IMG/VR virus record: IMGVR_UViG_3300017917_000529
Location: 1 to 64,000 of that record
Length of the DNA: 64,000 nt
DNA from: a virus
Direction: 5' to 3' (one strand)
Shown piece after piece: positions 3,317 to 63,968 of the stretch; position 1 is the first letter of the stretch, and the number at the start of each line of letters is the position of its first letter. A model generated the notes under the pieces. The model ran no database searches. It was not told where the DNA came from and saw only the letters and a list, made by a program, of their open reading frames with translations. Position numbers and translations under genes: made by a program.

Positions 3317-3833
3317 CTGTAATCACTTCATTTTCTTTTGCAATTGCAGAAAGCCTTCTCATAATTTCATCACGTACCTGTGGATATTCTGAAGCAATGT
3401 CTTTTAATATTCCCATCAAAACTTCTTGTTTTTTTTCTATTTGTACCATTTCTTCTGCTAATTCTTTATTTTCTAATAAACCCGCTTTTTGTAACATATC
3501 AATACGTCTTGATTCTATGTCTAATACTAACTTTATACCCTGACTTTTAGCATTAAGATTAGCGGTAGTTGTTGCATCCTCAATAACCTCATATGCCTTT
3601 GTTATTAACTTACTATAATGAGTATCTGCTGCAGCCAAAGCCTCTTTTGCTCTAGCACGAATAGCATCATTTGCTGATGCCATAACTTTCCATTCATTAA
3701 TTAAACTAACAACTTGTTGTCTAGGAATTGCAAGTTCTTTAGATATTCTTGTTGGATCATTACCTTTTAAATATTCCTCAACAACCTGATTAACTTGATC
3801 AAGATGTTTAACAAGATCTTGTTCAGTTGACAC
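3300..3833 (-). CDS. terS: Terminase small subunit
   Basis: This 177-residue protein lies directly upstream of the large terminase and overlaps it. An N-terminal helix-turn-helix (RISKELAIPRQQVVSLINEW, about residues 28-47) would recognise the packaging site. A long charged helical region follows (AAADTHYSKLITKAYEVIED and on), consistent with the oligomerisation core. The start is GTG, preceded by AAGGAAAA. The identity rests mainly on position, size and domain order. Confidence 0.8.
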   Translation of the reverse strand: MSTEQDLVKHLDQVNQVVEEYLKGNDPTRISKELAIPRQQVVSLINEWKVMASANDAIRARAKEALAAADTHYSKLITKAYEVIEDATTTANLNAKSQGIKLVLDIESRRIDMLQKAGLLENKELAEEMVQIEKKQEVLMGILKDIASEYPQVRDEIMRRLSAIAKENEVITVVHDI

Positions 3834-4881
3834 TATGTTTTTCCTTATATATCTTATAAATCATTTCAGCCCAGACATAATGAAATGCAGTTCCATAATG
3901 TCTTCCATCTCTAGCAATCATCGTATATTTATCATCTTTATGATTTTCTGTATATAAATATACTTTTTCTTCAATTTCTTTTATTTGTTCCTTATCGGTA
4001 GTAACAAAATAGTTATCTAAGTTACATAATCTTAAGAATGCATCAGTTCCTCTAACATAGGAAAATATATACAATTCTATATTATGTGATTTACAATATA
4101 CTTCTAAAAACATTAAATATTGATACATATATATATACATTGTGTGGACGAATACAGACAAAGTAGTATCTTGTTTTACTACTGAGTGCCTATAGTTATC
4201 GTTAATAGCATAAAATGTTTGACTTGGTCCCATAGGTTTATCAAACTCATCTGTGCTATCTGAATTTAATGCATAGAACCTGTTTAAATCTGGTAAATCT
4301 AAGAATATAATATCTGGATTACCATACTTATCAATATATTTAAATGTGCTTGCAACAACTTCAAATATACTTTTTCCTGGAGTTCCTATATTATAATATC
4401 CAGAAACTTTTTCTTCTTTTGATATTAAGTCAAGTAATAAATAAGACCACGTTTCTTTTGTGTATAAACCTTGACCATATGTTACTGAGCATCCGTTAAA
4501 CAAAATGTGTTTGCCGTCATGATCTTTTTTAAACTCATTAGACCTGAAACCTTGTTTATTTGGAACAAAATCATCTTCTGGAAAATCTACCCACATCTGA
4601 CTCTCATCTAGTTTTTTAGAATCTTTATATAAACCTTCAATTAAATTATTCCATCCAGTTAACTGTCTAGAAAATGGAAGTTCTACCTTTTCATTTTGCA
4701 GTAACGTTTTATAACTTTGTTTAGCAGTTTTAGTAAATTCACTATTTAGAGTTTCATATAAATTAACACCATCTTGTTTATTTAATGGTTGATAGTTTCT
4801 ACTATTTTCTGTATAGTTAAAAACATTATCATACACATCATCTTCTGTTCTTATTGTTTTTGGATCAAACTGATCATTCAT
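3823..4881 (-). CDS. SGNH/GDSL-family hydrolase-like protein
   Basis: The 352-residue protein carries recognisable SGNH blocks. These are FNGCSVTYGQGL (block I, nucleophile Ser), NIGTPGKS (block II Gly-type), PDIIFLDLPDLNR (block III position) and ARDGRHYGT (candidate Asp/His of block V). Such enzymes remove acyl or acetyl groups from carbohydrates or lipids. A phage could use one to trim host surface polysaccharide or a modified virion glycan. It overlaps its upstream neighbour by 8 bases and terS by 11, so the genes are one operon. It has no signal peptide. The substrate cannot be predicted. Confidence 0.65.
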   Translation of the reverse strand: MNDQFDPKTIRTEDDVYDNVFNYTENSRNYQPLNKQDGVNLYETLNSEFTKTAKQSYKTLLQNEKVELPFSRQLTGWNNLIEGLYKDSKKLDESQMWVDFPEDDFVPNKQGFRSNEFKKDHDGKHILFNGCSVTYGQGLYTKETWSYLLLDLISKEEKVSGYYNIGTPGKSIFEVVASTFKYIDKYGNPDIIFLDLPDLNRFYALNSDSTDEFDKPMGPSQTFYAINDNYRHSVVKQDTTLSVFVHTMYIYMYQYLMFLEVYCKSHNIELYIFSYVRGTDAFLRLCNLDNYFVTTDKEQIKEIEEKVYLYTENHKDDKYTMIARDGRHYGTAFHYVWAEMIYKIYKEKHSVN

Positions 4882-5158
4882 TTTCTGAATCTCCTTTGTT
4901 ATATATTTTTGAAACTTTCAATAATACCAAATATCCAATTAAATCATCTAAATCATTATCTCCATAATATTCGGATCCTCTTGATATTCTAGACAATTTA
5001 TCATCAATTCTAATTTTAATTTGTTCATCTGGATCTGCTTTAGAAAATATTCTTATTGGATCAATTGCAGAATCTCCATATGATTTATTTTTTTCAATAA
5101 GCATGTTTTTTATGTTGTCGCAAATATTAGCAATTATGTATTGGGTTGTGTTACTCAT
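4874..5158 (-). CDS. DUF1599 / nucleotide-modification-associated-like protein
   Basis: A small 94-residue protein with the pattern NKSYGDSAIDPIRIF, then KIRIDDKLSRI, then DNDLDDLIGYLVLL. This spacing of a KSYG motif, a DK..R helix and an acidic D..DL.GY helix resembles DUF1599 (named for its association with nucleotide modification). That family is related in style to all-alpha NTP pyrophosphohydrolases. It could police a dNTP pool or take part in base modification. The function is inferred from the family pattern only. It overlaps the SGNH gene by 8 bases. Confidence 0.55.
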   Translation of the reverse strand: MSNTTQYIIANICDNIKNMLIEKNKSYGDSAIDPIRIFSKADPDEQIKIRIDDKLSRISRGSEYYGDNDLDDLIGYLVLLKVSKIYNKGDSENE

Positions 5159-5313
5159 CTTTTTGATTTCCTTAATTCAAATTTAGCCAGGTATACATAT
5201 ATTGTTTCAACACTACATCCACACTCTTTGGCTATTTCTTCTGGTGACTTTCTATCCATAAGATATCTCTTACGCATAAAAACTTCACTAGTATACATTT
5301 TACCAGATGACAT
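5155..5313 (-). CDS. Small helix-turn-helix protein
   Basis: A 52-residue gene filling the space between the RuvC-like and DUF1599-like genes. The ATG at 5313 overlaps the RuvC stop by one base, and its TGA overlaps the next ATG (ATGA junction). The sequence SPEEIAKECGCSVETIYVYL is a canonical helix-turn-helix, like the specificity helix pair of resolvase or sigma-region-4 proteins. A basic tail follows (LRKSKR). Possible roles are a small transcriptional regulator or a DNA-binding accessory factor. Confidence 0.75.
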   Translation of the reverse strand: MSSGKMYTSEVFMRKRYLMDRKSPEEIAKECGCSVETIYVYLAKFELRKSKR

Positions 5314-5900
5314 CAAACATTAACTCCAGTTATCTTATTCCAATTGTTTACAGCCCAATGTCCTATAGCACAGGCATCTGCAACATCGTTGTCAGATATA
5401 TTTTTATCATACATGGTATTAATAAACCTTATAGTTCTTTCTTTTCTTAAATTTCTTTCATATGTTTTATACCAAGACTCACTTTTTCCAGGATTAGAAT
5501 TAACTATTGATAATCTTTCTTCTTTACTTATCTTCTTGTTTCCTATATAATTTTGCCATGTTATAGGTGATACAGATCCAACTGTAGGTACCCCGCAAGA
5601 ATATAGTGCTCCTATAATTGCTCCCTGAACCAAAGCCAAATCAGCAGCAGTTTTGGGACTATTCATAAACACAGTATGTTCTATAACCATAGCATCTATT
5701 TCATATAATTCAAATAGTGCCATGGTTTTAACACAGGCATCTCCAACCTTTTTATAATTTGTATCTCCACTAAAATTTATTTTTCCATAAAATGATAACT
5801 CTTTGTTTGAGAATACTGAAAATGCAAGACTATTTGTACTAGCATCAATACAACATAAGTTTTTTGGTATAGATTCAATACCCCACTTATTCTTTGTCAT
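5313..5900 (-). CDS. RuvC-like Holliday junction resolvase
   Basis: An RNase H-fold nuclease of about 195 residues. The catalytic acidic residues are visible as CCIDAST (first Asp), AMVIEHT (Glu) and NDVADACAIG (the C-terminal Asp pair). It would resolve junctions left by recombination-dependent replication before packaging. A TTG at 5906 is also in frame, but I prefer the ATG at 5900. The neighbours are DNA-metabolism and packaging genes. Confidence 0.82.
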   Translation of the reverse strand: MTKNKWGIESIPKNLCCIDASTNSLAFSVFSNKELSFYGKINFSGDTNYKKVGDACVKTMALFELYEIDAMVIEHTVFMNSPKTAADLALVQGAIIGALYSCGVPTVGSVSPITWQNYIGNKKISKEERLSIVNSNPGKSESWYKTYERNLRKERTIRFINTMYDKNISDNDVADACAIGHWAVNNWNKITGVNV

Positions 5901-6171
5901 TAGCAATTATCCTAATTTTTTTTAATGCTTTTACTACTTCTACAGGGTTAATCAAACAAAATGTGCAAATTGGTTCATCATTATATATCGATAAATCATT
6001 ACCACAATTTTTACATTTTCTATTTTTACCAATTCTTTTTTGTCTTCTTGAAATTAAATATCTTTCAGCAATTTTTTCTTTTGTTGCTGAATCTCTACAT
6101 TCCTCAGAACAATATATCTGATATGTTACTTTTGGTTTAAATGTTTGTTCACACCATTTACAGTTCTTCAC
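5887..6171 (-). CDS. Small double zinc-finger protein
   Basis: A 94-residue protein with two Cys clusters. The first is CKWC followed by CSEEC (residues about 4-25). The second is CKNC followed by CTFC (about 53-72). A basic linker joins them. The first half resembles the zinc-binding fold of HNH-associated or MYM-type fingers but has no HNH catalytic motif. The GTG start at 6171 overlaps the end of the Cas4-like gene. A nucleic-acid-binding role is likely. Confidence 0.65.
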   Translation of the reverse strand: MKNCKWCEQTFKPKVTYQIYCSEECRDSATKEKIAERYLISRRQKRIGKNRKCKNCGNDLSIYNDEPICTFCLINPVEVVKALKKIRIIANDKE

Positions 6172-6997
6172 CTAATTGCTCCAGAGAATCTATTTTGATG
6201 GTTCCCGCATCTGCTTCAGAGCATGCCTTTTGAATTGGACATTTAGCACATACCTTAGAATTAGATCTATAATTTTTCTTTGGCAATGTCTGATCTTTCC
6301 ATGCTTGACGCACAGTTCTCATCCATTCAAATGCATTGTCTACCCACTTGCGATAACTATCATTCAATGAGATGGGGAGTGTAAGTAATTCATGATTGTT
6401 TTTATTTTCATAAATAATAACACCCTTATCTTTTTTAAACACTTTCATATAAATAAGAACTTGTTTTAAATGATCTATTTTTGGTTTTCTGTGTATTTTT
6501 CTATATTCAAAACCTTCGCTTGGAACAGTTTTAATTTCACCAACCATATCAGTTCCATTAAAATGTATCATAGCATCTGCATAACCATTGATTGGTGGAT
6601 CTTCGGATTTAACTGAAAGTTCTAATGCTGGATGTATCTGTTTGTTGTATTTTCTTGGCTCTGGATCAAATTCTAAATCTTCTGCAAGAACTCCAGAATG
6701 CATCATAGCATCTTGTATTCTTCCATGACTTAAATTACCACCAGTTCTATTTGCTACGCCATAAGCATCTGCATTGTCTACCCATACCGTTCCATCAAAA
6801 GCCAAATACCAAAATCTTGGACATTCTCCATGATTCCATACTATAGTAGATGGAGAAAAACTATATTTTTTATTAAATTTTGGTTTTAAATTTTTTGTAT
6901 ATCCAGTTTCAATTGCCTCTATTAAACCATTTGTATGGTCTGACTCCAAAGTTTTTACATCTTTTTTTATCATAACCTGTTGTAGTAAATTTTTCAT
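6158..6997 (-). CDS. Cas4-like PD-(D/E)XK nuclease with Fe-S cysteines
   Basis: A 279-residue RecB-type nuclease. The core is GYADAMI (Asp), VGEIKT (the E-x-K) and a downstream QVLIYM helix (the conserved Gln). One cysteine near the N-terminus (GECPRFWY) and three near the C-terminus (CAKCPIQKAC) reproduce the four-Cys arrangement of the 4Fe-4S cluster in Cas4 and AddB. It probably acts as an exonuclease that makes single-stranded tails for the RecA-like recombinase encoded about 4 kb upstream. There is no CRISPR array or cas gene nearby, so a phage recombination role is the simpler reading. Confidence 0.8.
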   Translation of the reverse strand: MKNLLQQVMIKKDVKTLESDHTNGLIEAIETGYTKNLKPKFNKKYSFSPSTIVWNHGECPRFWYLAFDGTVWVDNADAYGVANRTGGNLSHGRIQDAMMHSGVLAEDLEFDPEPRKYNKQIHPALELSVKSEDPPINGYADAMIHFNGTDMVGEIKTVPSEGFEYRKIHRKPKIDHLKQVLIYMKVFKKDKGVIIYENKNNHELLTLPISLNDSYRKWVDNAFEWMRTVRQAWKDQTLPKKNYRSNSKVCAKCPIQKACSEADAGTIKIDSLEQLGEEL

Positions 6998-7025: not shown

Positions 7026-7352
7026 CTATCTTGTTATATACTTTAATGCTGAAACTAAATCGTTAATTGATTCTGCTGCAGTATAATAAATATTTTTTTT
7101 AGATCTATCATTTTTATCAACATTTGCCATCCATGTTGCTTTAAATGCCATTTTAGCAGCAATTGCTTGAAGTCTAACTATTTCTATTGTTGCAACATTA
7201 ATAGGAATATCTGGCTTTACTATTACCTTTGCAATAAAAGTTAGGGCAGTTGTGAGTTCTTCATCATTCATATACTCAGCAATTTCTACAAGACCATTAA
7301 CTTGTTCTAATGTAGTTTTATTATTTTCAGTTTGTAACACCAAAGCCTCCAT
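7026..7352 (-). CDS. Conserved-looking small helical protein
   Basis: A 108-residue, mostly helical protein. Hydrophobic helices alternate with charged turns (LTTALTFIAKVIVKP, RLQAIAAKMAFKATWMANV). It has no catalytic motif. It overlaps the end of the last 2OG oxygenase gene by 26 bases and ends at the promoter of the Cas4-like operon, so it closes the oxygenase operon. I do not recognise the family. Confidence 0.6.
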   Translation of the reverse strand: MEALVLQTENNKTTLEQVNGLVEIAEYMNDEELTTALTFIAKVIVKPDIPINVATIEIVRLQAIAAKMAFKATWMANVDKNDRSKKNIYYTAAESINDLVSALKYITR

Positions 7353-8103
7353 TATCTTCTGGTTCTATTCCTAAAAGCAAGCCCTCTTCGTGATATTGTT
7401 CCCAACTTTTTTGAAATCTTGGATGTTGATTTAATTCATCAATATATTTTTTTCTTACTTCTGGATGGTGTTCATTGTCTAAAGGATTTTCATCTCCTGT
7501 AAATCTATAATTATCTGGAGGACAATAATCAAAACTAACTATCTCAACATATTCTCCAGGCTTCCAGTGTCTTTTTGGTCTCCAATGTACTTGATTAACA
7601 GCACTAAACAACATCGCATCACCATTTTTAAGATCATAATGCTCTCCATCAATAACTAGTTGCCAATCATCAACATTCCCACCAATTTGATAATTAAATG
7701 TAACTAAGTTTTCGTCAGCATCAATATGCGGAGGTAATGATGGTGCATACTTTCCATCTCCGAACTGCATATCGTATTTAATATAATTATAGTGGCAAAG
7801 TTTGATTTCATCTTTATAGACTGGCTTTGCATGTAAATCCATGACCAACTCTATTTCTTTTGGACATTCAAATTCGATTAACTCCCTAGACATAACGGTA
7901 ATTTTTTTAGGATAGAATCTATTCATTGCTGAAATTATTTCAAAATCTGACTCAATTATGTCATCAACTACAATTTCTCTATTTGCCTCAATCACATCTC
8001 TTAATATTTTTATCTGATTTTCATTAAAAGGTTTTTCGATATAAACTGGAAGTTTAGTATTGTATTTATCAAAACTTGTTAAAAAGTTATGTATTTTACT
8101 CAT
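7327..8103 (-). CDS. 2OG-Fe(II) oxygenase, array member 5
   Basis: Predicted non-haem iron dioxygenase of 258 residues. The iron ligands are PPHIDAD (HxD, about residue 125) and NQVHWRP (distal His, about 172). An Arg two residues after the His may bind the 2-oxoglutarate carboxylate. I choose the ATG at 8103 because it forms a TAATG overlap with the previous stop, which discards an upstream extension in the track reading. It is the most divergent in length, with an extra C-terminal segment. The substrate could be a protein side chain, a nucleotide base or a small molecule. Confidence 0.8.
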   Translation of the reverse strand: MSKIHNFLTSFDKYNTKLPVYIEKPFNENQIKILRDVIEANREIVVDDIIESDFEIISAMNRFYPKKITVMSRELIEFECPKEIELVMDLHAKPVYKDEIKLCHYNYIKYDMQFGDGKYAPSLPPHIDADENLVTFNYQIGGNVDDWQLVIDGEHYDLKNGDAMLFSAVNQVHWRPKRHWKPGEYVEIVSFDYCPPDNYRFTGDENPLDNEHHPEVRKKYIDELNQHPRFQKSWEQYHEEGLLLGIEPEDNGGFGVTN

Positions 8104-8738
8104 TAGTATGAACCTTCTGTTGGATTTGAACTTATTCCTGGTGTTTGATCCCACACACTGTACTGATAGTCTCTTCTATCTAAAATTTCCTTATCCTCTT
8201 GTTCTGTTCTATAGTTATTAACTTTAGGAACAAAGTGTAGAAACAGTGCTTCTAAAAATTCTCCGTCTTTAAATTCTTTTTTTGGTCTCCAATGAACTTG
8301 GTGAGTTCCAGAAAAAGTTAACGCTTGGTTGTCTTTTAAAATAAAACTTTCTTGAGATTTCCAATTATCCACAATTATTTCCCAACTAACATTTGATCTT
8401 AATTGTACATCTACTGTAAATCTTTTACCTTCAAAAGCATTATCTATATGTGGAAATAGTAGTGGATTAAACCATAGTTTTCTACAATCAGATATCGTTT
8501 TTTGATATCTAGAAAAATTATATTCTTTAAGAACTAAACCTTCTCCAACAATCTCTTCAGCAACCTTAGTGACACTATCTATGATATCTGATGGAAGTAT
8601 GATATGTGAACTCACATAACTTAAATATTGTTGAAAAGATGTACGTGGAGCATTTTGTACTATCTCATATATTCTATTTATTTGTTCTTCTGTAAAAAAA
8701 TTTTCTATAATAATGTTTGGAACATTTTTATAACTCAT
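8103..8738 (-). CDS. 2OG-Fe(II) oxygenase, array member 4
   Basis: A 211-residue paralogue of its neighbours. LFPHIDNAF gives HxD (about residue 95) and THQVHWRPK the distal HxR (about 149). The strand between them carries the shared pattern VSWEIIVD. It is coupled to both neighbours by TAATG overlaps. It has no signal peptide, so it acts in the host cytoplasm. It has diverged from the other members over most of its length, so this is an old duplication and not recent copying. Confidence 0.82.
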   Translation of the reverse strand: MSYKNVPNIIIENFFTEEQINRIYEIVQNAPRTSFQQYLSYVSSHIILPSDIIDSVTKVAEEIVGEGLVLKEYNFSRYQKTISDCRKLWFNPLLFPHIDNAFEGKRFTVDVQLRSNVSWEIIVDNWKSQESFILKDNQALTFSGTHQVHWRPKKEFKDGEFLEALFLHFVPKVNNYRTEQEDKEILDRRDYQYSVWDQTPGISSNPTEGSY

Positions 8739-9385
8739 TAATTATCTCCTATTTTAATTGGTTGTCTTTCTATTCCGCTTTGCTCTCTTAATCTGTGTGA
8801 CCAATATTCTAAAATTAATTTTTGATCTTTGCTCCAAGGTCTATGATCAGCATATCTAAAATGAGCAAACAGCATATCAACTCTATCTTTATCAGACAAC
8901 TTTTTATTTTCTCTCCAATGAATCTGTTGAGTTCCAGAGAAAACTAATCCATCATTATTTTCTAAATTAAAGGATTGACCTTCTACTATAACTGCCCAAG
9001 GAGTAGTTGCGTTTAGTTGTATATCTAGTGTAATTCTTTGACCATCTTTTTCATGAGTATCAAAATGTGGAAAAAGTTTTGGTTCATACCCATATTCACG
9101 AGAGTATCTTGCAAAAGATAATTCAGTTAAAAACATTTGCTCGTTTAAAACATTACTCATCCAAAGATTTAAATATTTTTCTAAATCTTGATTGTGAAAT
9201 GTCCAAGCCCTATGCCCAACAAAATCTTGTGTTAAAAAATTATCTTTTATTTTATCAACTTCGTGATATATAAGTTCATTTTGTTCTTTTGTTATAATAT
9301 TTTTATAAATAAAAACTTCAAAATCTCTATTTGGAACAATACCATTTTCTAGTTCTTCGTTATATATTGCTGGATCAAAACCCAT
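8738..9385 (-). CDS. 2OG-Fe(II) oxygenase, array member 3
   Basis: A 215-residue member. The ligands are LFPHFDTHEKDG (HxD, about residue 106) and TQQIHWREN (distal HxR, about 155). WAVIVEG lies between them. It is closest to member 2 upstream: both have the PHFDxHxKDGQ core and a C-terminal tail ending in an EQSGI/QESGI and PIK motif. That common tail may be a docking element for a shared partner. Confidence 0.83.
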   Translation of the reverse strand: MGFDPAIYNEELENGIVPNRDFEVFIYKNIITKEQNELIYHEVDKIKDNFLTQDFVGHRAWTFHNQDLEKYLNLWMSNVLNEQMFLTELSFARYSREYGYEPKLFPHFDTHEKDGQRITLDIQLNATTPWAVIVEGQSFNLENNDGLVFSGTQQIHWRENKKLSDKDRVDMLFAHFRYADHRPWSKDQKLILEYWSHRLREQSGIERQPIKIGDN

Positions 9386-9386
9386 T

Positions 9387-10100
9387 TTATTTATCCTCTC
9401 TAAACACTTTATCTACAAGTTCTTCCCAATCTTTTTTTCCGCCCCACTCATCTGACTTGTTTACTGATAGTTTAATTGGATCTAGAGCAATTCCAGATTC
9501 TTGTTGATACTTTACTTCCCAATAACGCATTGCTTCATCTTGATCTAAACTTAGTGGTTTGTTATTTACATATTTAAAATGTGCAAATATGGCAGCACAA
9601 TAATCATTCTTCTTAAAATTATATTTCTCTCTCCAGTGTACTTGTTGGGTTCCAGAAAAAACTACACCCTCGTTTTTTTTAGTTTTATATTTTTTGTTTT
9701 CGACAACTAAATTCCAATCTATATTAGAATCTATTTCAACTGACATTGTTACTGTTTGTCCATCTTTAGCATGATTATCAAAATGTGGATATAGTTTTGG
9801 TTCATATCCAAATTCTGGAGCATAAATACACAACTCTATATCAACTAATCTTACTTTTTCTTTAACTCCTTCACTAACAACTTCCTCAAGTCTTTTAGTA
9901 ATTTCTGGATAGTTAACTACCCACTTTCTTTGACCAGCATAGCCAACAGTTATATAATAATCTTGAAATCTTTTATAATGATGTTTTAATGTATTTATAT
10001 GGTCTTCTGATAAAACATCTTTAATATAAAATACTTCAAAGTCTTTATTATCCACATAAATATTTTCTAATCTTTCATTGTATTCTAGTTTTTTATACAT
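9387..10100 (-). CDS. 2OG-Fe(II) oxygenase, array member 2
   Basis: A 237-residue member. The ligands are LYPHFDNHAKDG (about residue 105) and TQQVHWREK (about 155). Its C-terminus continues past the QESGIALDPIKL motif into a charged tail. The start has no clear Shine-Dalgarno sequence and lies 14 bases after the stop of member 1, so it may depend on coupled translation. Confidence 0.82.
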   Translation of the reverse strand: MYKKLEYNERLENIYVDNKDFEVFYIKDVLSEDHINTLKHHYKRFQDYYITVGYAGQRKWVVNYPEITKRLEEVVSEGVKEKVRLVDIELCIYAPEFGYEPKLYPHFDNHAKDGQTVTMSVEIDSNIDWNLVVENKKYKTKKNEGVVFSGTQQVHWREKYNFKKNDYCAAIFAHFKYVNNKPLSLDQDEAMRYWEVKYQQESGIALDPIKLSVNKSDEWGGKKDWEELVDKVFREDK

Positions 10101-10114
10101 TGTTTTAACTCAGT

Positions 10115-10654
10115 CTACTCTCTATCAATTGGTGCTCTAAAAAAGAAAAATAGCATATCTACAAACTCATCTTCTTCAAATCTTTTTTCTGGTCTTCCAT
10201 GAAATTGTTTAAACGGTCTAAGCAAAACTCCTTGATTATTAACTAATTCATAATTAGTTCCATCTATAGTAATTGGCCAAACAGTATTTGCTTTTAATTG
10301 ATAATCAATTAAAGTTGTATCAAGTTTTGAATCATAGTGACCATTTAGCCTAGGTGCTCCAACGCTTGGAGAATAATGTGCATAAACAGTACTGATATAC
10401 TCACAATCTCCATATTTTTCTTTTACTAATCTCTTTAGTTTTTCAACAATATATTCTGGTGTTGGAAGTATTTCTGCCATCAACCTTCCATTATCTATAT
10501 CTACCATAACAACATCATCTTGATTTATTAGTGATCCATTTTCATCTTGTAGTATTGGAACATGTGGTCTATTATTTATTTCATCATCAACCATCTTAAA
10601 AAGATCTGCACACTCTTCTTTTGTAAACAAATCATTAAATAGTATATTTTCCAT
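10115..10654 (-). CDS. 2OG-Fe(II) oxygenase, array member 1
   Basis: The first gene of the array, 179 residues from the chosen start. The ligands are LNGHYDSK (HxD, about residue 102) and KQFHGRPEKR (distal HxR, about 150). Gly replaces the Trp seen between His and Arg in the other members. I reject the longer start at 10672 because the -10 box TATAAT lies inside that extension, exactly six bases before the ATG at 10654. That spacing predicts a leaderless mRNA. Confidence 0.78.
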   Translation of the reverse strand: MENILFNDLFTKEECADLFKMVDDEINNRPHVPILQDENGSLINQDDVVMVDIDNGRLMAEILPTPEYIVEKLKRLVKEKYGDCEYISTVYAHYSPSVGAPRLNGHYDSKLDTTLIDYQLKANTVWPITIDGTNYELVNNQGVLLRPFKQFHGRPEKRFEEDEFVDMLFFFFRAPIDRE

Positions 10655-10666
10655 ATTACTATTATA
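10655..10666 (-). promoter_or_regulatory. Leaderless promoter for the oxygenase array
   Basis: TATAAT (10666-10661) is followed by six bases and then the ATG at 10654, so the expected transcription start is the A of ATG. The usual upstream TG is absent (AGG instead). No Shine-Dalgarno sequence is present, in keeping with leaderless initiation. Confidence 0.55.
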
Positions 10667-10946
10667 CCTCATCCATTAATTGTTGTAGCATATCCATTTC
10701 AATAATTGCTAATCTTGTTTTAGTATTACCTTCTCCCAAAATTACCACTATTGCTGGATCAGCATTTTTTTTAATTGCATCAGTTACAGCCTTTGCCCAA
10801 ACCTCTTTATTTAAAGTAAAAGACTTTTTTGATTCTTTAAAATCAATAACAAAGTTGTTCCAGGACGCATCTCCCTTAACCGTATTTCTTCCAGAATTTT
10901 TGTGCTGCTTGGCACCGATTCTTTTACTCTCGTTCTTCTCGCTCAT
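10662..10946 (-). CDS. PD-(D/E)XK nuclease-like small protein (putative junction resolvase)
   Basis: A 94-residue protein with the compact order of a small PD-(D/E)XK nuclease. It has a basic N-terminus with SGRNT, then KGDASW (first acidic residue), then VIDFKES (D-x-K). A helix follows, and a hydrophobic strand PAIVVILGE with a later polar helix. Phage and archaeal junction resolvases and VRR-like nucleases share this plan. It lies immediately after the zinc-ribbon protein and RecA in one operon. Confidence 0.65.
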   Translation of the reverse strand: MSEKNESKRIGAKQHKNSGRNTVKGDASWNNFVIDFKESKKSFTLNKEVWAKAVTDAIKKNADPAIVVILGEGNTKTRLAIIEMDMLQQLMDEV

Positions 10947-11106
10947 AATCTTTCTTTGACTTGTGAACCAATCTTACTTTACTAAGATGTTTGTTTTTAC
11001 ACATCCAAGTTAAATCTTTAGTCTCAGTGTAAGACCTTAAGGTATTTACTATATCCTTACATGTATGACAAATAAACTTGCCGTTATATGTTACATAATT
11101 AGGCAC
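10924..11106 (-). CDS. Small zinc-ribbon protein
   Basis: A 60-residue protein with CHTC and a later MCKNKH, which would make a CxxC...CxxxH zinc site. The C-terminus is highly charged (KSKKDYEREERE). The GTG start overlaps the RecA stop, and the 3' end overlaps the nuclease gene by 23 bases. It is probably an accessory DNA- or RNA-binding factor in the recombination operon. Confidence 0.65.
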   Translation of the reverse strand: MPNYVTYNGKFICHTCKDIVNTLRSYTETKDLTWMCKNKHLSKVRLVHKSKKDYEREERE

Positions 11107-12106
11107 TTAATTTATTCTTAATCATCTCTTGTAGACCAAGATCCTCTCTTACTGCTTCTATAAACGCTTCCCTACCTTGAATTTTTGTACCATCTTCTAA
11201 TTGATACCAGGCACCAGTTCTATTTACTAAGCCAGATGCTTCTGCTGTATCTACTAAATCTCCTATTTCATCTATGCCAATTTTATCTCCTCTGAAATAA
11301 AAATCATATTCTCCAGATTGAAATGCTGGAGATGTTTTAGAAAATTGTAACTCCCACCTAACTTTTCTACCAACCTTTTCTTCAATAAGTTTGTCACCAA
11401 TTTTTATTTTACCCTTTAATGCCTGGTTGTCCGATTCAGAAGAAAACAACTTTATTACACATGAAGAATAAAATTTGGTTGCTTGTCCCCCAGAGGGTTG
11501 TTGACTAGTATACATAGCATTAATATTATTTCTAGATTGAGAAATAAGAACTAGTAATGTTGGTTTAACTTTATTGTTTGCATAGTTTAACATCTTCCAT
11601 GCATTACTAAAATCTCTAGATTCTGCACCAATTTGTTTTGTATTTTCTAAAGCCTTCATCTCATCACTGTCTTTTTCAAAATATATTGCTGGTAATAATG
11701 ATGTAATAGAATCAACAACAATCAAATCTACTCCAGCATTCATTAATCCAACTCCAACATCAACCATATCGCTAATTGTTCTTGCTTGAGAATATATTAA
11801 TTTTTCTGGATCAACTCCTAAAGACTTAGCCCATTCTTCTGAATATGACATTTCTGCATCAATCCAAGCACACAACTTTCCTTCTTTTTGTGCCAAGGCA
11901 ATCATTTGTAAACACATAGATGATTTTGCAGAAGACTTGCTACCCCAAATTAAAACTTGTCTTCCATATGGTAAACCTCCACCAAGTGCTTTGTTTAAAC
12001 CAAAACTAGGTGTAGGTTGAAATTCAAAATTAACACCTACTCCAGTTCCCAATCTCTTCCTTAATTTTGGATCAAGTTGAGACAACACTTCTTCTACGCT
12101 AAGCAT
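11099..12106 (-). CDS. recA: RecA/UvsX-like recombinase
   Basis: A 335-residue strand-exchange ATPase. The Walker A is GSKSSAKSS, in which Ala replaces the invariant Gly before the Lys. T4 UvsX also lacks that Gly. The Walker B is DLIVVDSITSLLP. A QIGAESRDFS stretch and an SQSRNN loop match the RecA core. It would drive recombination-dependent replication and repair. A GGAGG site six bases from the ATG gives a firm start. It overlaps dnaE upstream by 8 bases. Confidence 0.9.
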   Translation of the reverse strand: MLSVEEVLSQLDPKLRKRLGTGVGVNFEFQPTPSFGLNKALGGGLPYGRQVLIWGSKSSAKSSMCLQMIALAQKEGKLCAWIDAEMSYSEEWAKSLGVDPEKLIYSQARTISDMVDVGVGLMNAGVDLIVVDSITSLLPAIYFEKDSDEMKALENTKQIGAESRDFSNAWKMLNYANNKVKPTLLVLISQSRNNINAMYTSQQPSGGQATKFYSSCVIKLFSSESDNQALKGKIKIGDKLIEEKVGRKVRWELQFSKTSPAFQSGEYDFYFRGDKIGIDEIGDLVDTAEASGLVNRTGAWYQLEDGTKIQGREAFIEAVREDLGLQEMIKNKLSA

Positions 12107-47709: not shown

Positions 47710-47718
47710 ATTTTATCA
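47710..47718 (-). promoter_or_regulatory. Extended -10 promoter of the appendage gene
   Basis: TGA-TAAAAT with a 15-base leader holding AGGAGA before ATG 47694. It sits in the short gap after the prolyl-hydroxylase-like gene. Confidence 0.5.
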
Positions 47719-48246
47719 TATTTTCCTTGTAAACCAGCGTGGTAATGTAAATCTTGTTCCATCAATAATTGGCTTTACACCATGTATGAAATTTGGATTA
47801 TCTGGAAAGCATAATAGATCTCCAGGTTTTGGCTTATATGAAATTTTGTATTTTGGAAAATATATGTCTCCGCCCTCATACTCATCATTTAAATAAACAA
47901 GTGTTGCTATGTCTAATGGTCTAGAAGCATCGTAGTGTTCATGCATTCCCCTGCCTTTTTCAAATTTGGCAATGTGTGTTTTTTCTTCTATAAAGTTTTC
48001 AAAGTTTACAGAGTATTCAGAAATAACAAATTTATAGACTCTTTTTGCTACATCTTGAATTATTTTAAGTATCTCTTTATCATTTTCAAGTATTTCATTG
48101 TACGTATGTACCTTAAATTCTTGCTCAGTATTTCCAAAATCAGTAAAAGAATCTAAATGATTTTTAGCATAATTAGACACAGAAATAGCATCATTATAAT
48201 TCATAAAACCACCAATGTACTTTATCTGGTTTATATATTCTTCCAT
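47716..48246 (-). CDS. Prolyl-4-hydroxylase-like 2OG-Fe(II) oxygenase
   Basis: A 176-residue dioxygenase. The ligands are HEHYDASRP (HxD, about residue 103) and NFIHGVKPI (distal His, about 155), followed by TRFTLPRWF with an Arg at the usual spacing for 2-oxoglutarate binding. YEGGDIYFPK lies between them, as in the PF13640 type. It is spaced six bases from nrdJ and belongs with it. A Pro/Lys hydroxylase for the collagen-like or other virion proteins is one possibility; no direct evidence. Confidence 0.82.
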   Translation of the reverse strand: MEEYINQIKYIGGFMNYNDAISVSNYAKNHLDSFTDFGNTEQEFKVHTYNEILENDKEILKIIQDVAKRVYKFVISEYSVNFENFIEEKTHIAKFEKGRGMHEHYDASRPLDIATLVYLNDEYEGGDIYFPKYKISYKPKPGDLLCFPDNPNFIHGVKPIIDGTRFTLPRWFTRKI

Positions 48247-50364: not shown

Positions 50365-50493
50365 TTAGTGAAAAGACATTGCTGTATGTTTTTTTGGACT
50401 ACAACGTTCACATAACACATATGTGTTTTTTGTATATGGACAAGTTGTACTTTTTATTTTATGTCCAAAAATTAAACAAAAAAGTTTTTTCAA
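50365..50493 (-). CDS. Small DUF1660-like zinc protein
   Basis: A 42-residue protein read from a TTG that overlaps the stop of the oxygenase gene. KKLFCLIFGHKIK followed by a Cys (TTCPY) and LCERCS matches the pattern of the short prophage family DUF1660: an N-terminal C...GHK and a downstream CxxC zinc site. TTG initiation and lack of a clear ribosome-binding site are the weak points. It accounts for most of the gap between the oxygenase and nrdJ genes. Confidence 0.5.
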   Translation of the reverse strand: MKKLFCLIFGHKIKSTTCPYTKNTYVLCERCSPKKHTAMSFH

Positions 50494-51119
50494 GGTAGTG
50501 GAACCCAGTGTTGTAATTTATCTCCACTCATATGTGTAAGTGGGGAAATATCATAAGCAATAGTTATTCTTGGTTTATTAAATAACCAAGGCCCTATACC
50601 ATGTGGATGACCAGTTTCAGATAAAATAGCCCTATTATTTTTATTAATATTTTCTACTGGCTTTGCATCGTGTCCACCAATTTTATAATAAGTAATAGAT
50701 GGTTCAGCATCTACGCAATAATAGCCATGAAAATTAGGAGCACCTGTTCCACCTAAATGATCATGATAGTGTGTTGATTCATTTATTGCTGGATCTTCCA
50801 TACCATCTGTATTAAACCAACCTTGAACCATATACGATTGTTTTGTATAATCAATTCCATAATATTCACATGCCTCTTTTGTCATATCTCTAAGTGCAGA
50901 AAAAAGTTTATGAATTTGTGGATTATAGCATTGAAAAATATTAAACTTTGTTCCTAGATTATGAACACCTTGCACAGTACTAGCAAACTCTTTAGATATT
51001 TTTGGATATACTCCAGCAAATAAATCTTTTTCTAGTTTTAATAAATATGCTGATAACTGTGTTAAATCATTATCAAGATATTTTTCAAAAAACCTATGAG
51101 GAAGTTTTGAATTTATCAT
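50490..51119 (-). CDS. PF13759-like 2OG-Fe(II) oxygenase, copy B
   Basis: About 209 residues from the ATG at 51119, which forms an ATGA overlap with copy A. An extension to 51224 is rejected because it would read through that gene. HYHDHLGG gives the HxD-like ligands and GHPHGIGPW the distal His. NFHGYYCVDAEPS and PRITIAYDIS are shared with copy A. It resembles the putative 2OG-Fe(II) oxygenases common in large marine and freshwater phages. Cytoplasmic. Substrate unknown. Confidence 0.75.
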   Translation of the reverse strand: MINSKLPHRFFEKYLDNDLTQLSAYLLKLEKDLFAGVYPKISKEFASTVQGVHNLGTKFNIFQCYNPQIHKLFSALRDMTKEACEYYGIDYTKQSYMVQGWFNTDGMEDPAINESTHYHDHLGGTGAPNFHGYYCVDAEPSITYYKIGGHDAKPVENINKNNRAILSETGHPHGIGPWLFNKPRITIAYDISPLTHMSGDKLQHWVPLP

Positions 51120-51781
51120 ATTAATGGAATCCAGTGTTGTTCGTGTTGTCTTCCAACATATTTTAATTCTTCTAGTGTCATAACATCGTATGCCACTGTA
51201 ATTCTTGGACCATCCCAAGTCCAATCTCCTTGAGCATGTGGATGACCCATTTCAGAATATATAGCACGATTATCTATATTTTTATTTTCTACATCTTTAC
51301 CAAAAACTCTATAATATGTTGTTGAAGGTTCTGCTTTTACACAGTAATATCCATGAAAATTATCTGGAGCACCAGTATGACCATGATCATGCCAATCTAA
51401 CTTTCCTTTTTTAGCATAATTTATATTAAACCATCCCTGTAACATATATTTCTTTTTTTCAAAATCAATTTCATAATACTCACATGCTTCTTTAGCCATA
51501 TCTTTAATATTTTTATATAACTCATATATACCTTCTATATGAAATTGAAAAACATTGTATTCTCTCCATTTAACAGTAGAAATACTACCAGACTCTACCC
51601 AAAAATCCTTATTGTTAACTGGAGTGATTCCGTCTAGTTCTACTTTTTCAATACTTTGATATCTATCGATTAGTTCATTTGCTAATAAATCTAAATCATT
51701 ATTTAAATATCTTTCAAAAAATTTATGTGGCTTGGTTGATTCTTGAATACCACGTAATTCTGGTGGTGGACCTTGTCTCAT
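51116..51781 (-). CDS. PF13759-like 2OG-Fe(II) oxygenase, copy A
   Basis: A 221-residue protein. LDWHDHGHTGAP gives candidate iron ligands, GHPHAQGDW the distal His, and PRITVAYDV the strand with the likely 2-oxoglutarate Arg. FHGYYCVKAEPSTTYYRV is nearly identical in style to copy B, so the two are tandem paralogues. AGGAAAA and an extended -10 precede the ATG. It lies just downstream of a Hint-domain virion protein. Confidence 0.77.
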   Translation of the reverse strand: MRQGPPPELRGIQESTKPHKFFERYLNNDLDLLANELIDRYQSIEKVELDGITPVNNKDFWVESGSISTVKWREYNVFQFHIEGIYELYKNIKDMAKEACEYYEIDFEKKKYMLQGWFNINYAKKGKLDWHDHGHTGAPDNFHGYYCVKAEPSTTYYRVFGKDVENKNIDNRAIYSEMGHPHAQGDWTWDGPRITVAYDVMTLEELKYVGRQHEQHWIPLI

Positions 51782-51830: not shown

Positions 51831-53084
51831 TTAATCTGGTATTTCTGAAGGAGAGTAGTCGTTATAATGAACTAGCCCACCTGCTATAACCAAACCAATT
51901 GGATATCTTCCAAAACTATAAACAGTTCTAGTTTCATTAATAACTTCAACATTATCTATTACAACTAATGAATCTCTTGTTATTATTTTATCTCCAGGCT
52001 TAATATCTCTTGATGAAATAAATTGATATAAACCATTTTTAACAACAAACATGTCTTCTAACAAAGAAAATCTCATATCTGGGTTATTATTAAATTGTAC
52101 AGTTTCGTGAACAACTGTTGGTGTAATTTTTGTTACTTCTGCTTCTAACTCTCTATAGTTAGTTAAATTACCACTTTTTTTCCATAGAACAATTTTAAAT
52201 AAATCTCCGACAGGCATTTCTTCAAATGCTTTTACTATCAACTTATCTCCAAGTTGAATATCTTTTGCTTTTTTATTTCCAGTTGTTGTAAGAACTGGGG
52301 CATCTTCGTCTACACAATATGTAGTTGGTGAAAAACCAAATACTCTGAATGGAGAGAATCCAAATACTCTAAAAGGTGAAAAACCAAAAACGTTGAATGG
52401 TGAGAAACCAAATACGTTAAATGGTGAGAAACCAAATACTGTAAAAGGTGAGAAACCAAACACACCAAACGGAACGAAAGAAAATGTTGTAGTAACTGAT
52501 GCTGAGTAATCTGAAAATTCTGAATCACCATTAGCATTGGTTGCTTCAACTCTATATTGTTGTGATGTTCCTGCTTCTTGTGATACTGTTACGCTTGTTG
52601 AAGTTCCTGTGTTTCCTGATTTACCGTCGTTTGATTCCCAGTAATAGTTGGTAATTGCTTTTCCACCATTTGCTGGTGCACTCCACGAAACTTGATCTTG
52701 ATCAGCGTTTGGAGATGATGCACTTGGTGCTGATGGTTTTGCTGGAACTGTTGTTGCTGTAATAGAATTAGAAACTTCAGATGATCCAGATGTTCCATAT
52801 TGATTGGTTGCGGTAACTGTAAAAGTATAAGATGTATCAGATTGTAAACCTGTTACTGTGATTGGAGATGAAGATCCAGTTGCTGTATAATTTCCTGGAT
52901 TTGATGTAACTGTAAAAGAATCTGCAGCGTACGTAGGGTCTGCTGTAAATGTTACTGTTGCTGCACCATTATTAAATGGTCTGGCTGTTCCAACATCAGT
53001 TGCTGTGCCAATTGTTGGTGCTTTTGGCATAAGAAAGTCATTTGCACCTTGTGATTTCTTACCACTCTTTTTACCTACTGCCAT
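51831..53084 (-). CDS. Fn3 - VFGFSPF repeat - Hint domain virion protein (A)
   Basis: A 417-residue protein. After a basic N-terminus come two fibronectin type III domains (about residues 28-110 and 115-200; typical YTATGSSSPITVTGLQ and TSYTFTVTATNQYG). Then comes a tract of six VFGFSP units spaced every eight residues (about 208-253). The rest is a Hint (hedgehog/intein) fold: YCVDEDAPVLTTTGNKKAKD (block A, Cys1), SSRDIKPGDKII, TVYSFGRYPIGLVIAGGLVHYND (block F/G region). The block B position reads FSLLED in place of TxxH. Autoprocessing or cross-linking to a surface is possible. It has a paralogue at 60133. Confidence 0.8.
   Translation of the reverse strand: MAVGKKSGKKSQGANDFLMPKAPTIGTATDVGTARPFNNGAATVTFTADPTYAADSFTVTSNPGNYTATGSSSPITVTGLQSDTSYTFTVTATNQYGTSGSSEVSNSITATTVPAKPSAPSASSPNADQDQVSWSAPANGGKAITNYYWESNDGKSGNTGTSTSVTVSQEAGTSQQYRVEATNANGDSEFSDYSASVTTTFSFVPFGVFGFSPFTVFGFSPFNVFGFSPFNVFGFSPFRVFGFSPFRVFGFSPTTYCVDEDAPVLTTTGNKKAKDIQLGDKLIVKAFEEMPVGDLFKIVLWKKSGNLTNYRELEAEVTKITPTVVHETVQFNNNPDMRFSLLEDMFVVKNGLYQFISSRDIKPGDKIITRDSLVVIDNVEVINETRTVYSFGRYPIGLVIAGGLVHYNDYSPSEIPD
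52326..52463 (-). repeat. 24-bp coding repeat (VFGFSPFx), six units
   Basis: Five full 24-base units plus a partial one encode VFGFSP-F-x. The variable residue x runs T, N, N, R, R from N- to C-terminus. The tract is exactly 138 bases, the same length as the second copy at 60646-60783. Confidence 0.9.
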
Positions 53085-59563: not shown

Positions 59564-60136
59564 ATGAAAAAAGATAAAACATTTTTAATAGGAATACTCG
59601 CAAGTGTGGTCGCATTATCAGTTAGTTTTAACATAGCAAATGCTAAGGCTATTGAAAGTACGCCCAAAAAAGAAGATTTTGCAAGATATACCGCTCAAGC
59701 GGTTTTTTTGCTTTCTGTAGAGAATAATGATCACTACACAGAAGAAGATATTAAAGTGCTATCTAAGTATGAAGATCATGTTCAATTTAATGATTTAGAA
59801 CTTAAAGAGTTTTTAGGTGCTTGTGGATTTAAGGGTCGTAGACTTATGGAAGCATGGGCTATAGTTAAAAAAGAGTCTATGGGAAACGCCTTAAGTTTTA
59901 ATGGTAATTCTAAAACTGGAGATAAATCATATGGATTGTTTCAAATTAATATGATTGGAGACCTTAATGCTGACAGAAAAGAAAAATATGATTTAGATTA
60001 TGCCAGTCAGTTATTAAATCCAGTTATAAATTGTCAAGTTGCATATTTAATGAGTAAAAATGGAGAAAACTGGGGACCTTGGAAGGGTTTAACTTCTAGA
60101 ACTAGAGAATTTATGTATAAATTTCCAAAAGATTAA
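59564..60136 (+). CDS. Secreted lysozyme / lytic transglycosylase-like protein
   Basis: A 190-residue exported protein. The signal peptide is KKDKTFLIGILASVVALSV with an ANA-K cleavage-type site. The SLT/lysozyme-like domain has the candidate catalytic Glu in AIVKKESMGN (about residue 103), SYGLFQINM in the substrate groove, and a closing NGENWGPWKG. It would cut host peptidoglycan. The Sec signal means it can reach the wall without a classical holin. It is the only large gene on the plus strand and has its own promoter. AGGAGGA lies six bases before the ATG. No conserved holin is visible in the window. Confidence 0.82.
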   Translation: MKKDKTFLIGILASVVALSVSFNIANAKAIESTPKKEDFARYTAQAVFLLSVENNDHYTEEDIKVLSKYEDHVQFNDLELKEFLGACGFKGRRLMEAWAIVKKESMGNALSFNGNSKTGDKSYGLFQINMIGDLNADRKEKYDLDYASQLLNPVINCQVAYLMSKNGENWGPWKGLTSRTREFMYKFPKD

Positions 60137-61050
60137 TCTATTGGATAAGCATTATATACAAATAAAGAATCTGCCACTATAAGACCAAATGGTTCTCTTA
60201 TAAAATCATAAACTTTTCTTTTTTCTTGTATAATTTCTATTTTTTCAACATAGTATAATTCACTATCATTTATCTGTTCTTTATTTCTAACTATTTGATC
60301 ATTTTTCTTTAATTCAGATGAAACAATAAAAATTAATTTATTATCTCTTAAAACTAAAATATCTTCTTGAGTAGAAAATCTTTTAAATTTATCTCCATTA
60401 ACAATAACTGTTTCAAATACTTCTGTTTCTTTAATATTTTTTATTTCAGCAACAAGATCTTCATATTCAATATTAGTTTCAGAATTCCATTCTCTAATAC
60501 CTTCGTGATTTGTAAGTGGAATATTTTTAAAATATTTAACTATTAACTTATCATCCATTGTTATATCTTTTGCTAAAATATAACCTTTTTCTGTTAAAAC
60601 AGGGGTGTCTTGGTCTATACAATATGGAGTAAAACTATATGTTACTGGTGAGAACCCAAATACTCTAAAAGGTGAAAATCCAAAAACGTTAAATGGAGAA
60701 AAACCAAAAACATTAAAAGGAGAAAACCCAAAAACATTAAAAGGAGAAAATCCGAATACTGTAAATGGTGAAAATCCAAATACTCCAAATGGCACAAAAC
60801 TAAATTGTCTAACTGTTAAATCAACTGGGGTTTCATAATCTGCTGGTGTGGTAACTGCTGGAACTTGTTCAACAATTTTTCCATCATTTTCTAATTCTGT
60901 TGGTTCACCAGAAACAGATGTAACAACATTTCCTAGAGTAAAACCTTCTGAAACAACGTCTGATTGAGCCTGTGCACTTGTTCTTCCAATAAAGTTAGGA
61001 ACTAGTTTCATTCCTTTGGCTATAACATATTTGACTAATTTTCCAAACAT
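60133..61050 (-). CDS. PASTA - VFGFSPF repeat - Hint domain virion protein (B)
   Basis: A 305-residue paralogue of the protein at 51831. It begins with a basic helix, then a PASTA domain (about residues 17-82: LVPNFIGRTSAQAQSDVVSE, ending VDLTVRQ), a module that binds peptidoglycan. Then come six VFGFSP units (about 90-135) and a Hint fold starting YCIDQDTPVLTEKGYILAKD with Cys1. The block B position reads FSTQED, and the C-terminus ends SLFVYNAYPID with no His before Asn. The two families share repeats and Hint but differ in the N-terminal ligand domain. The stop is shared with the lysozyme gene. Confidence 0.8.
   Translation of the reverse strand: MFGKLVKYVIAKGMKLVPNFIGRTSAQAQSDVVSEGFTLGNVVTSVSGEPTELENDGKIVEQVPAVTTPADYETPVDLTVRQFSFVPFGVFGFSPFTVFGFSPFNVFGFSPFNVFGFSPFNVFGFSPFRVFGFSPVTYSFTPYCIDQDTPVLTEKGYILAKDITMDDKLIVKYFKNIPLTNHEGIREWNSETNIEYEDLVAEIKNIKETEVFETVIVNGDKFKRFSTQEDILVLRDNKLIFIVSSELKKNDQIVRNKEQINDSELYYVEKIEIIQEKRKVYDFIREPFGLIVADSLFVYNAYPID
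60646..60783 (-). repeat. 24-bp coding repeat (VFGFSPFx), six units, second copy
   Basis: Same length and same amino-acid units as the tract at 52326-52463, with x running T, N, N, N, R. Codon choices differ between the copies and between units, so the amino-acid sequence, not the DNA, is being kept. Confidence 0.9.
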
Positions 61051-63224: not shown

Positions 63225-63968
63225 TTATGACACTGAGATATACATGCTTTTTAATAAATAAGAGGCATCATAATCTGATTTAATATAAGCATTACAGTAG
63301 TTAAACCACATATCTTTATTTTCAACATAAATGGTTTGATCAAAACTTATATCATATATTCCTTGATATTTAAAATATCCTAATTGACCAAGGTTTGACT
63401 TATCTAATTCTTGATAAACTGTTGCAATCCATACCTCTGTATGATTTACTAATATTTCTAGTTGTATGTTATAGGTAACTTTTACTACAGAACCAATTTC
63501 TAAGCCTCTAAATGTAAAAGATCTTGTTTCTTCGTTATATAAGGCATTACATCCTTTTGGTAAAAAATTATGATTTTTTTTAATACTGTGTTTGTCAATT
63601 AATAATTGATGCCATCCATTTTCTCCTCTATTGGGATTTATTGTATGTATCCTACTAGATGTATTATGATAACTAGCCCATCCAAGTTGTTGGTTATAGG
63701 TAGAACCTAGTCCCTCTTTTCCATCTTTACCATCTTTTCCATCTTTTCCATCAATACCATTTTTTCCATCTTTTCCTTTTGGTCCTGGATCACCTTTTGG
63801 TCCTTGTGGACCTTCTGGTCCCCTATCACCTTTTGGTCCTACTAAACCTTGTTCTCCTTGAGGTCCTGGTACTGGCAAGAATTGTAGTTGTGGTTGATTT
63901 TCATCTGAATAAATTTTTGGTTTTTCTTTTTCTTGAATAGGAAAACCCATACTTCGTGTTATTGGCAC
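63225..63968 (-). CDS. Collagen-like fibre protein
   Basis: A 247-residue protein. The N-terminal 35 residues are an adaptor. Residues about 36-90 are Gly-X-Y triplets rich in Pro, Lys, Asp and Gln (GPQGEQGLVGPKGDRGPEG and on, then KDGKDGKDG). The rest is a C-terminal beta head (YNQQLGWASYHNTSSRIHTI, IYVENKDMWFNYCNAY) that may trimerise and bind a receptor. The start is GTG with GGAGG upstream. The bases right of 63968 hold only the upstream AT-rich leader. Confidence 0.78.
   Translation of the reverse strand: MPITRSMGFPIQEKEKPKIYSDENQPQLQFLPVPGPQGEQGLVGPKGDRGPEGPQGPKGDPGPKGKDGKNGIDGKDGKDGKDGKEGLGSTYNQQLGWASYHNTSSRIHTINPNRGENGWHQLLIDKHSIKKNHNFLPKGCNALYNEETRSFTFRGLEIGSVVKVTYNIQLEILVNHTEVWIATVYQELDKSNLGQLGYFKYQGIYDISFDQTIYVENKDMWFNYCNAYIKSDYDASYLLKSMYISVS

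Follow-up and report, generated by a model that had tools for sequence, protein, structure and literature searches.

Prolyl hydroxylases of the PHD/P4H type, such as PHD2, P. putida P4H and the PBCV-1 collagen prolyl hydroxylase vCPH (PF13640), hold 2-oxoglutarate (2OG) with an Arg or Lys at about +9/+10 from the distal His, and in PHD2 this residue is Arg383, which holds the 2OG C5 carboxylate (PMC10952196). Conventional 2OG-Fe(II) oxygenases with the same Arg position (PHROG 61) are found in cyanophages and pelagiphages, in several non-identical copies per phage genome (PMC3037559, PMC9599517), and in pelagiphages such copies are said to lie frequently close to one another, though not side by side (PMC9599517). 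Here we describe an array of five adjacent genes (array A, positions 7327-10654) that likely encode oxygenases of this superfamily in a 64,000-base stretch of viral DNA (hereafter the window), which covers bases 1-64,000 of the 68,789-bp IMG/VR record IMGVR_UViG_3300017917_000529. On the one hand, the array proteins have in common with the PHD/P4H type the (predicted) fold, the size, the HxD...H motif and a Tyr before the HxD, and with the PHROG 61 enzymes the presence of several different copies in one genome. On the other hand, their conserved Arg is at +2 and their identity to the PHD/P4H type is 11-16%.

Array A consists of five co-directional open reading frames (ORFs) on the minus strand, which encode proteins of 179-258 amino acids (aa) and are separated, in transcription order, by junctions of +14, +1, -1 and -1 nt.

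10115 to 10654, minus strand: array gene 5, first transcribed, 179 aa, GHYD...QFHGRP (ORF; profile E 1e-56; orthologue lengths; position-specific clade)
9387 to 10100, minus strand: array gene 4, 237 aa, PHFD...QVHWRE (ORF; profile E 3e-74)
8738 to 9385, minus strand: array gene 3, 215 aa, PHFD...QIHWRE (ORF; predicted structure with matches to double-stranded beta-helix proteins)
8103 to 8738, minus strand: array gene 2, 211 aa, PHID...QVHWRP (ORF; profile E 2.5e-72)
7327 to 8103, minus strand: array gene 1, last transcribed, 258 aa, PHID...QVHWRP (ORF listed from GTG 8154; start 8103 by orthologues; profile E 2.7e-74)

The GTG at 8154 is probably unused and array gene 1 probably starts at ATG 8103, since its orthologues begin at that ATG and have a length of 258 aa. 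Orthologue lengths likewise point to 10654 as the probable start of array gene 5, with 10672 as a possible alternative. A search of the whole record with array gene 4 alone recovered eight copies of the family and not five (all E 7e-8 or better), three of which lie on the opposite strand just beyond the end of the window (array B, 65,340-67,320, plus strand). Judged by these matches, the homology of the eight copies is far beyond chance, and a profile built from all of them recovers each at 1e-56 or better, as it must by construction. UniProt already contains sequences, annotated as uncharacterised, from an uncultured phage whose proteins form a closely similar set.

The structure of the array gene 3 protein (215 residues) was predicted with 26 relatives as additional input. 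The gene 3 model, with a predicted local distance difference test (pLDDT) score of 91.8 and a predicted template modelling (pTM) score of 0.89, has the fold of a double-stranded beta-helix (DSBH). Comparison with known structures through Foldseek and VIA-align matched it to dozens of 2OG/Fe(II) oxygenases at VIA Z 13-15, namely the nogalamycin enzyme SnoN (15.3), a Burkholderia oxygenase (15.1), P. putida P4H (14.3), vCPH (14.3), PHD2 (about 14) and AlkB (13.7), among others, and related predicted models are present in BFVD. Although SnoN/SnoK gave the best Z, their identity to the array proteins is about 10% and their scores are tied with those of protein hydroxylases. Seven positions were invariant in all 86 distinct members of the family (Y94, L104, H107, D109, W130, H156 and R158 in gene 3 numbering), and R158, two residues past the distal His, was the only alignment column with more than 60% Arg/Lys. 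Conventional oxygenases of the same phages showed the usual arrangement, with Arg at +10 in 22 of the 25 that were readable and V/I as the usual residue at +2; one of them is encoded in the window itself.

47716 to 48246, minus strand: conventional 2OG-Fe(II) oxygenase with Arg at His+10, a contrast to the array (PF13640 E 7e-11; HGVKPIIDGTRF)

These results bear out the initial annotation, which had read five adjacent genes, each with an HxD and a distal His in a QxHxR frame, as 2OG-Fe(II) oxygenases with the Arg at +2 as their signature, as opposed to about ten residues past the distal His in classic members. On the predicted model, the array family is a variant within the 2OG/Fe(II) oxygenase superfamily, of which it has the fold and the metal triad. 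By its alignment it lies outside PF13640/P4H, since membership there entails an Arg or Lys at about +9 to +12 that the array family lacks; likewise, no array-family protein matched the PF13640 profile above the cut-off.

We thus consider it likely that the five genes of array A and the three of array B encode small Fe(II)/2OG-type oxygenases with a PHD/P4H-like DSBH, a statement that concerns the enzyme class and not the substrate. The HxD and the distal His would bind Fe(II), and the Arg at +2, on strand VII, would hold the 2OG C5 carboxylate instead of an Arg on strand VIII. Each paralogue would then hydroxylate its own target, and the paralogues would be co-produced with the proteins for replication and recombination. 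In PHD2, the distal His is His374, nine residues ahead of Arg383, and Val376, at His+2, forms part of the lining of the 2OG pocket; an Arg at this position could thus plausibly replace Arg383. Some observations weigh against this reading or limit its reach: no Pfam or NCBIfam model matched the family proteins, no solved relative was found by sequence, and the family alignment has no basic column in the stretch about 9 to 12 residues past the distal His. Moreover, the fold indicates an oxygenase and not its substrate, because protein, DNA and small-molecule oxygenases tie in Z, and the location of the array A genes beside DNA genes would also fit nucleic-acid targets. LH3 (E 1.4), CorA (0.7) and SptF (0.17) were rejected as sequence relatives, their matches not being significant.

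Other oxygenase-like genes were also noted. The label 'DNA endonuclease' of PHROG 2297 looks doubtful, because the PF13640 oxygenase at 47716-48246 matches this PHROG (E 3.5e-22). Two overlapping paralogues of the window beside a tail-fibre-type gene (50490-51224 and 51116-51781) have HDH...R motifs and no Pfam match, and may be additional, divergent oxygenases of the 2OG type. L052 (3998-5218) and L055 (1763-3064) encode proteins of about 400 aa, each of which has two domain matches of the HxD...HWR type.

The sole profile that matched the array family was PHROG 2954, annotated as 'ferrochelatase' (E 1e-5 to 1e-9 for most members). It was matched by 22 of 27 array-family members (best E 2e-9) across part of the profile, and profile-profile alignment of the two families gave a probability of 98.8% (E 8e-17). 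PHROG 2954 and PHROG 3531, which occur in cyanophages and pelagiphages and have related genes in Sphingomonas and in some bacterial metagenome-assembled genomes (MAGs), share the core (HxD...W...GDA..Y.G...HWR), the Arg at +2 and the predicted DSBH with the array. An alignment of 79 PHROG 2954-type sequences (the cyanophage 'ferrochelatase' set plus IMG/VR) showed the HxD, the Trp, the distal His and the Arg at +2 to be invariant in 79/79. Nevertheless, the matches of their profiles to array proteins are weak (E 1e-5 to 1e-8), they are mostly single genes (78/80 loci), and they carry signatures of their own, HTDRP.CE and Q.FLHY, that do not occur in the array-family alignments. On these comparisons, the array family is a sister family of PHROG 2954 and not a core member of it.

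The model of a PHROG 2954 member (pLDDT 95.7) was a DSBH near P4H, PHD2 and SnoN (Foldseek E 7e-8), with a best VIA Z of up to 16.6, to SnoN/SnoK. Four cyanophage proteins annotated as 'ferrochelatase' matched PHROG 2954 at 1e-51 to 1e-64, and none of the four matched the PF00762 ferrochelatase domain up to E 1. Because of the DSBH model and the lack of a Pfam ferrochelatase match in the members tested, the label 'ferrochelatase' of PHROG 2954 is very probably wrong and should give way to that of an oxygenase. This matters because published work on marine viromes reasons from the label and takes it as a marker of iron/heme metabolism: according to one study, pelagiphage ferrochelatases invariably lie next to a 2OG oxygenase and have a tie to heme/iron (PMC9599517), and ferrochelatase (phrog2954) has been reported as enriched in seasonal viruses (PMC11561400). 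Where the pelagiphage genes are PHROG 2954, the rule of a ferrochelatase next to a 2OG oxygenase would become that of an oxygenase next to an oxygenase. Several genes of G008-G014 first taken as PHROG 2954-like proved to be conventional oxygenases with Arg at +10. The gene neighbours of five bacterial homologues showed no consistent partner. In a Legionella MAG (L201, 5803-11315), a PHROG 2954-like oxygenase gene lies about 3 kb from genes that, read by eye, resemble those of lasso-peptide biosynthesis (PqqD-like, B2-like, kinase-like and asparagine-synthase-like).

The evolution of the paralogues was analyzed through a maximum-likelihood tree of 76 sequences, in which a number of the deep branches are long and uncertain in their order. 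The family proteins formed one clade with position-specific groups: genes were grouped by their position in the array and not by genome. The order of the subfamilies was kept across arrays of three, four and five genes (e.g., 5, 3/4, 2, 1 in L186 and 3/4, 2, 1 in L180), the gene-2 grouping of these two arrays being weaker (support 89/65). Orthologues from different genomes were 63-91% identical and paralogues 17-37%, array genes 3 and 4 being the closest pair (37%). Pairwise omega was 0.07-0.29 for all eight genes, with 0.10 for the Cas4-like neighbour. Together, the tree, the identities and the purifying selection uphold the earlier view of strongly diverged, old paralogues that were kept separately, and recent amplification is ruled out by the first two. 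Non-enzymatic cupin/DSBH proteins or decayed copies, which the missing canonical Arg might suggest, are highly improbable, as the metal triad is invariant in 86/86 members and omega is low throughout; gene decay into pseudoenzymes was rejected on the same two grounds. The conserved collinear order fits a stepwise function or one performed as a set, and is no proof of either. A wider proposal, in which the Arg at +2 on strand VII would be a second solution for holding 2OG in a large, hitherto unrecognised oxygenase clade (the array family, PHROG 2954 and bacterial relatives) and the ordered array would also be a multi-step pathway on one phage or host polymer, strikes us as speculative and, taken as a whole, unlikely.

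Array A is located within a recombination operon, where the initial annotation had placed it between recombination genes and a Cas4-like nuclease. The genes on either side agree with this placement, with DnaE, a RecA/UvsX-like recombinase and two small ORFs upstream, and PHROG 9818, the Cas4-like gene, a Zn-ribbon gene and RuvC downstream.

11099 to 12106, minus strand: RecA/UvsX-like recombinase, same operon (PF00154 E 1e-35)
10662 to 10946, minus strand: upstream border of the slot, conserved ORF of 94 aa (kept as a neighbour across related loci; directly next to the PHROG 9818 gene in loci without the array)
7026 to 7352, minus strand: downstream border of the slot, PHROG 9818 family (PHROG 9818 E 1.7e-24)
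6158 to 6997, minus strand: Cas4-like exonuclease, same operon (PHROG 1706 E 2e-40; 37% to Streptomyces phages)

A scan of IMG/VR with the Cas4-like neighbour gene yielded 80 related loci, with both borders visible in 70; these loci can be near-identical between samples, and the counts are thus not of independent events. No family member was present in 42/70, and the remaining 28/70 carried one to five. Among the 42 oxygenase-free slots, the border genes abutted or overlapped in 40 (gap -19 to +2 nt) and the other two were filled by a KefB-like antiporter. The same DnaE-RecA-...-PHROG 9818-Cas4-RuvC operon is found in the Stanwilliamsviridae (Streptomyces phages, e.g., Comrade), whose terminase and DnaE are 54% identical to those of the array phages and whose matching operon interval, unlike that of the window, has no oxygenase gene. 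Given the empty slots in relatives and this oxygenase-free interval, array A is an accessory gene set carried by a recombination operon that is otherwise conserved. Cargo is found at several points of this operon: in L172 and L174 (about 4610-6660), the KefB-like cation/H+ antiporter occupies the slot of the array, and a methyltransferase-like gene has been inserted at a distance of one gene upstream. Judged by the kinship of the phage core with Streptomyces phages, the host is probably an actinobacterium. A promoter of its own, which had been predicted for the array as a leaderless one, found no support in a count of 26 sigma-70-like sites versus 29.0 +/- 6.2 in shuffles (the model being sigma-70-like and not of the leaderless type). 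Because there is no excess of promoter sites and the array abuts or overlaps its neighbours, array A reads as the interior of a longer operon.

What these enzymes act upon can be weighed from their surroundings, and our leading, still tentative, guess is that they target protein side chains, of either the host translation machinery or virion proteins. That the array instead oxidises DNA bases or nucleotides in the manner of TET/AlkB, as a hypermodification against restriction, might be suggested by the position of array A in a recombination operon next to RecA, Cas4 and RuvC, and by AlkB and ALKBH3 among the fold matches. Yet SnoN and the prolyl hydroxylases match at least as well, and the operon neighbours of array A that were examined included no recognisable DNA methylase, hydroxymethylase or base glucosyltransferase. 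Array B, moreover, is located apart from the replication module, near tail and lysis genes, and the relatives that lack the array (42 of 70 loci) have the same replication genes. For these reasons, we regard DNA-base oxidation as unlikely.

The neighbourhood of array B consists of small lysis- or tail-type ORFs and a collagen-like gene.

63225 to 63968, minus strand: collagen-like tail protein, 1.4 kb from array B (PF01391 E 1e-9)

A collagen-like gene adjoins array B in every contig that carries this array, and vCPH and P4H are among the fold matches, both of which would agree with hydroxylation of the collagen-like tail protein. We analyzed such associations in 13 genomes (long contigs), 8 with the family and 5 without, by Fisher tests whose p values ignore shared ancestry. 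The collagen gene was present in 6/8 genomes with the family versus 4/5 without (p 1.0), so this presence/absence test did not support the tail protein as substrate. Prolines at the Y position are nearly absent from the collagen repeat of the window. Collagen hydroxylation is therefore very improbable. A scan of viral contigs with the collagen C-terminal domain found nothing.

Hydroxylation of a glycan, lipid or other small molecule, jointly with the phage SGNH hydrolase, glycosyltransferases and a carbamoyltransferase, is a possibility we take seriously without favoring it. A hydrolase of the SGNH type was present in 7/8 genomes with the family versus 0/5 without (p 0.005), and conventional 2OG oxygenases in 8/8 versus 1/5 (p 0.007).

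3823 to 4881, minus strand: SGNH/GDSL-like hydrolase with the motif GCSVTYGQG (presence tracks the oxygenase family across relatives)

In some relatives, conventional oxygenases form islands together with genes of the SGNH, GT-A-like and NodU-like carbamoyltransferase types (the latter two recognised by eye); specifically, 2OG oxygenases lie beside a GT-A-like gene in G010, G011 and G013, the NodU-like gene being also present in G011 and G013. Since the oxygenase islands carry these genes, such chemistry comes close behind protein hydroxylation. RmlC-like (sugar-epimerase-like) and GT2-like genes directly adjoin array B in G002 (L020, 9249-10644), and SnoN, the best match in Z, is a small-molecule enzyme. 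However, the SGNH association derives from 13 genomes without correction for shared ancestry, the islands are mostly of conventional oxygenases and not of the array family, only G002 showed a glycosyltransferase next to array B, and SnoN and the prolyl hydroxylases are tied within about 1 Z.

Elsewhere in the window, two genes (51831-53084 and 60133-61050) contain an octapeptide-like repeat (VFGFSPFN) and, by eye, a C-terminal Hint-like segment, joined to Fn3 or PASTA. Genes with this type of repeat are present in two copies each in G000, G002 and G005, and one in L018 (3115-3666) has a Cys-rich tail.

Relative to the literature searched, novelty appears to lie in the enzyme class, the HxD...HxR signature, the slot and the new reading of PHROG 2954, while the genes themselves had already been deposited. 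With an HxD...HxR site that is invariant and lacks the usual basic residue, the way in which these proteins would hold 2OG is directly testable. Likewise, a fixed slot that holds from zero to five ordered paralogues constitutes a natural gene-content series for asking what phage oxygenases do.

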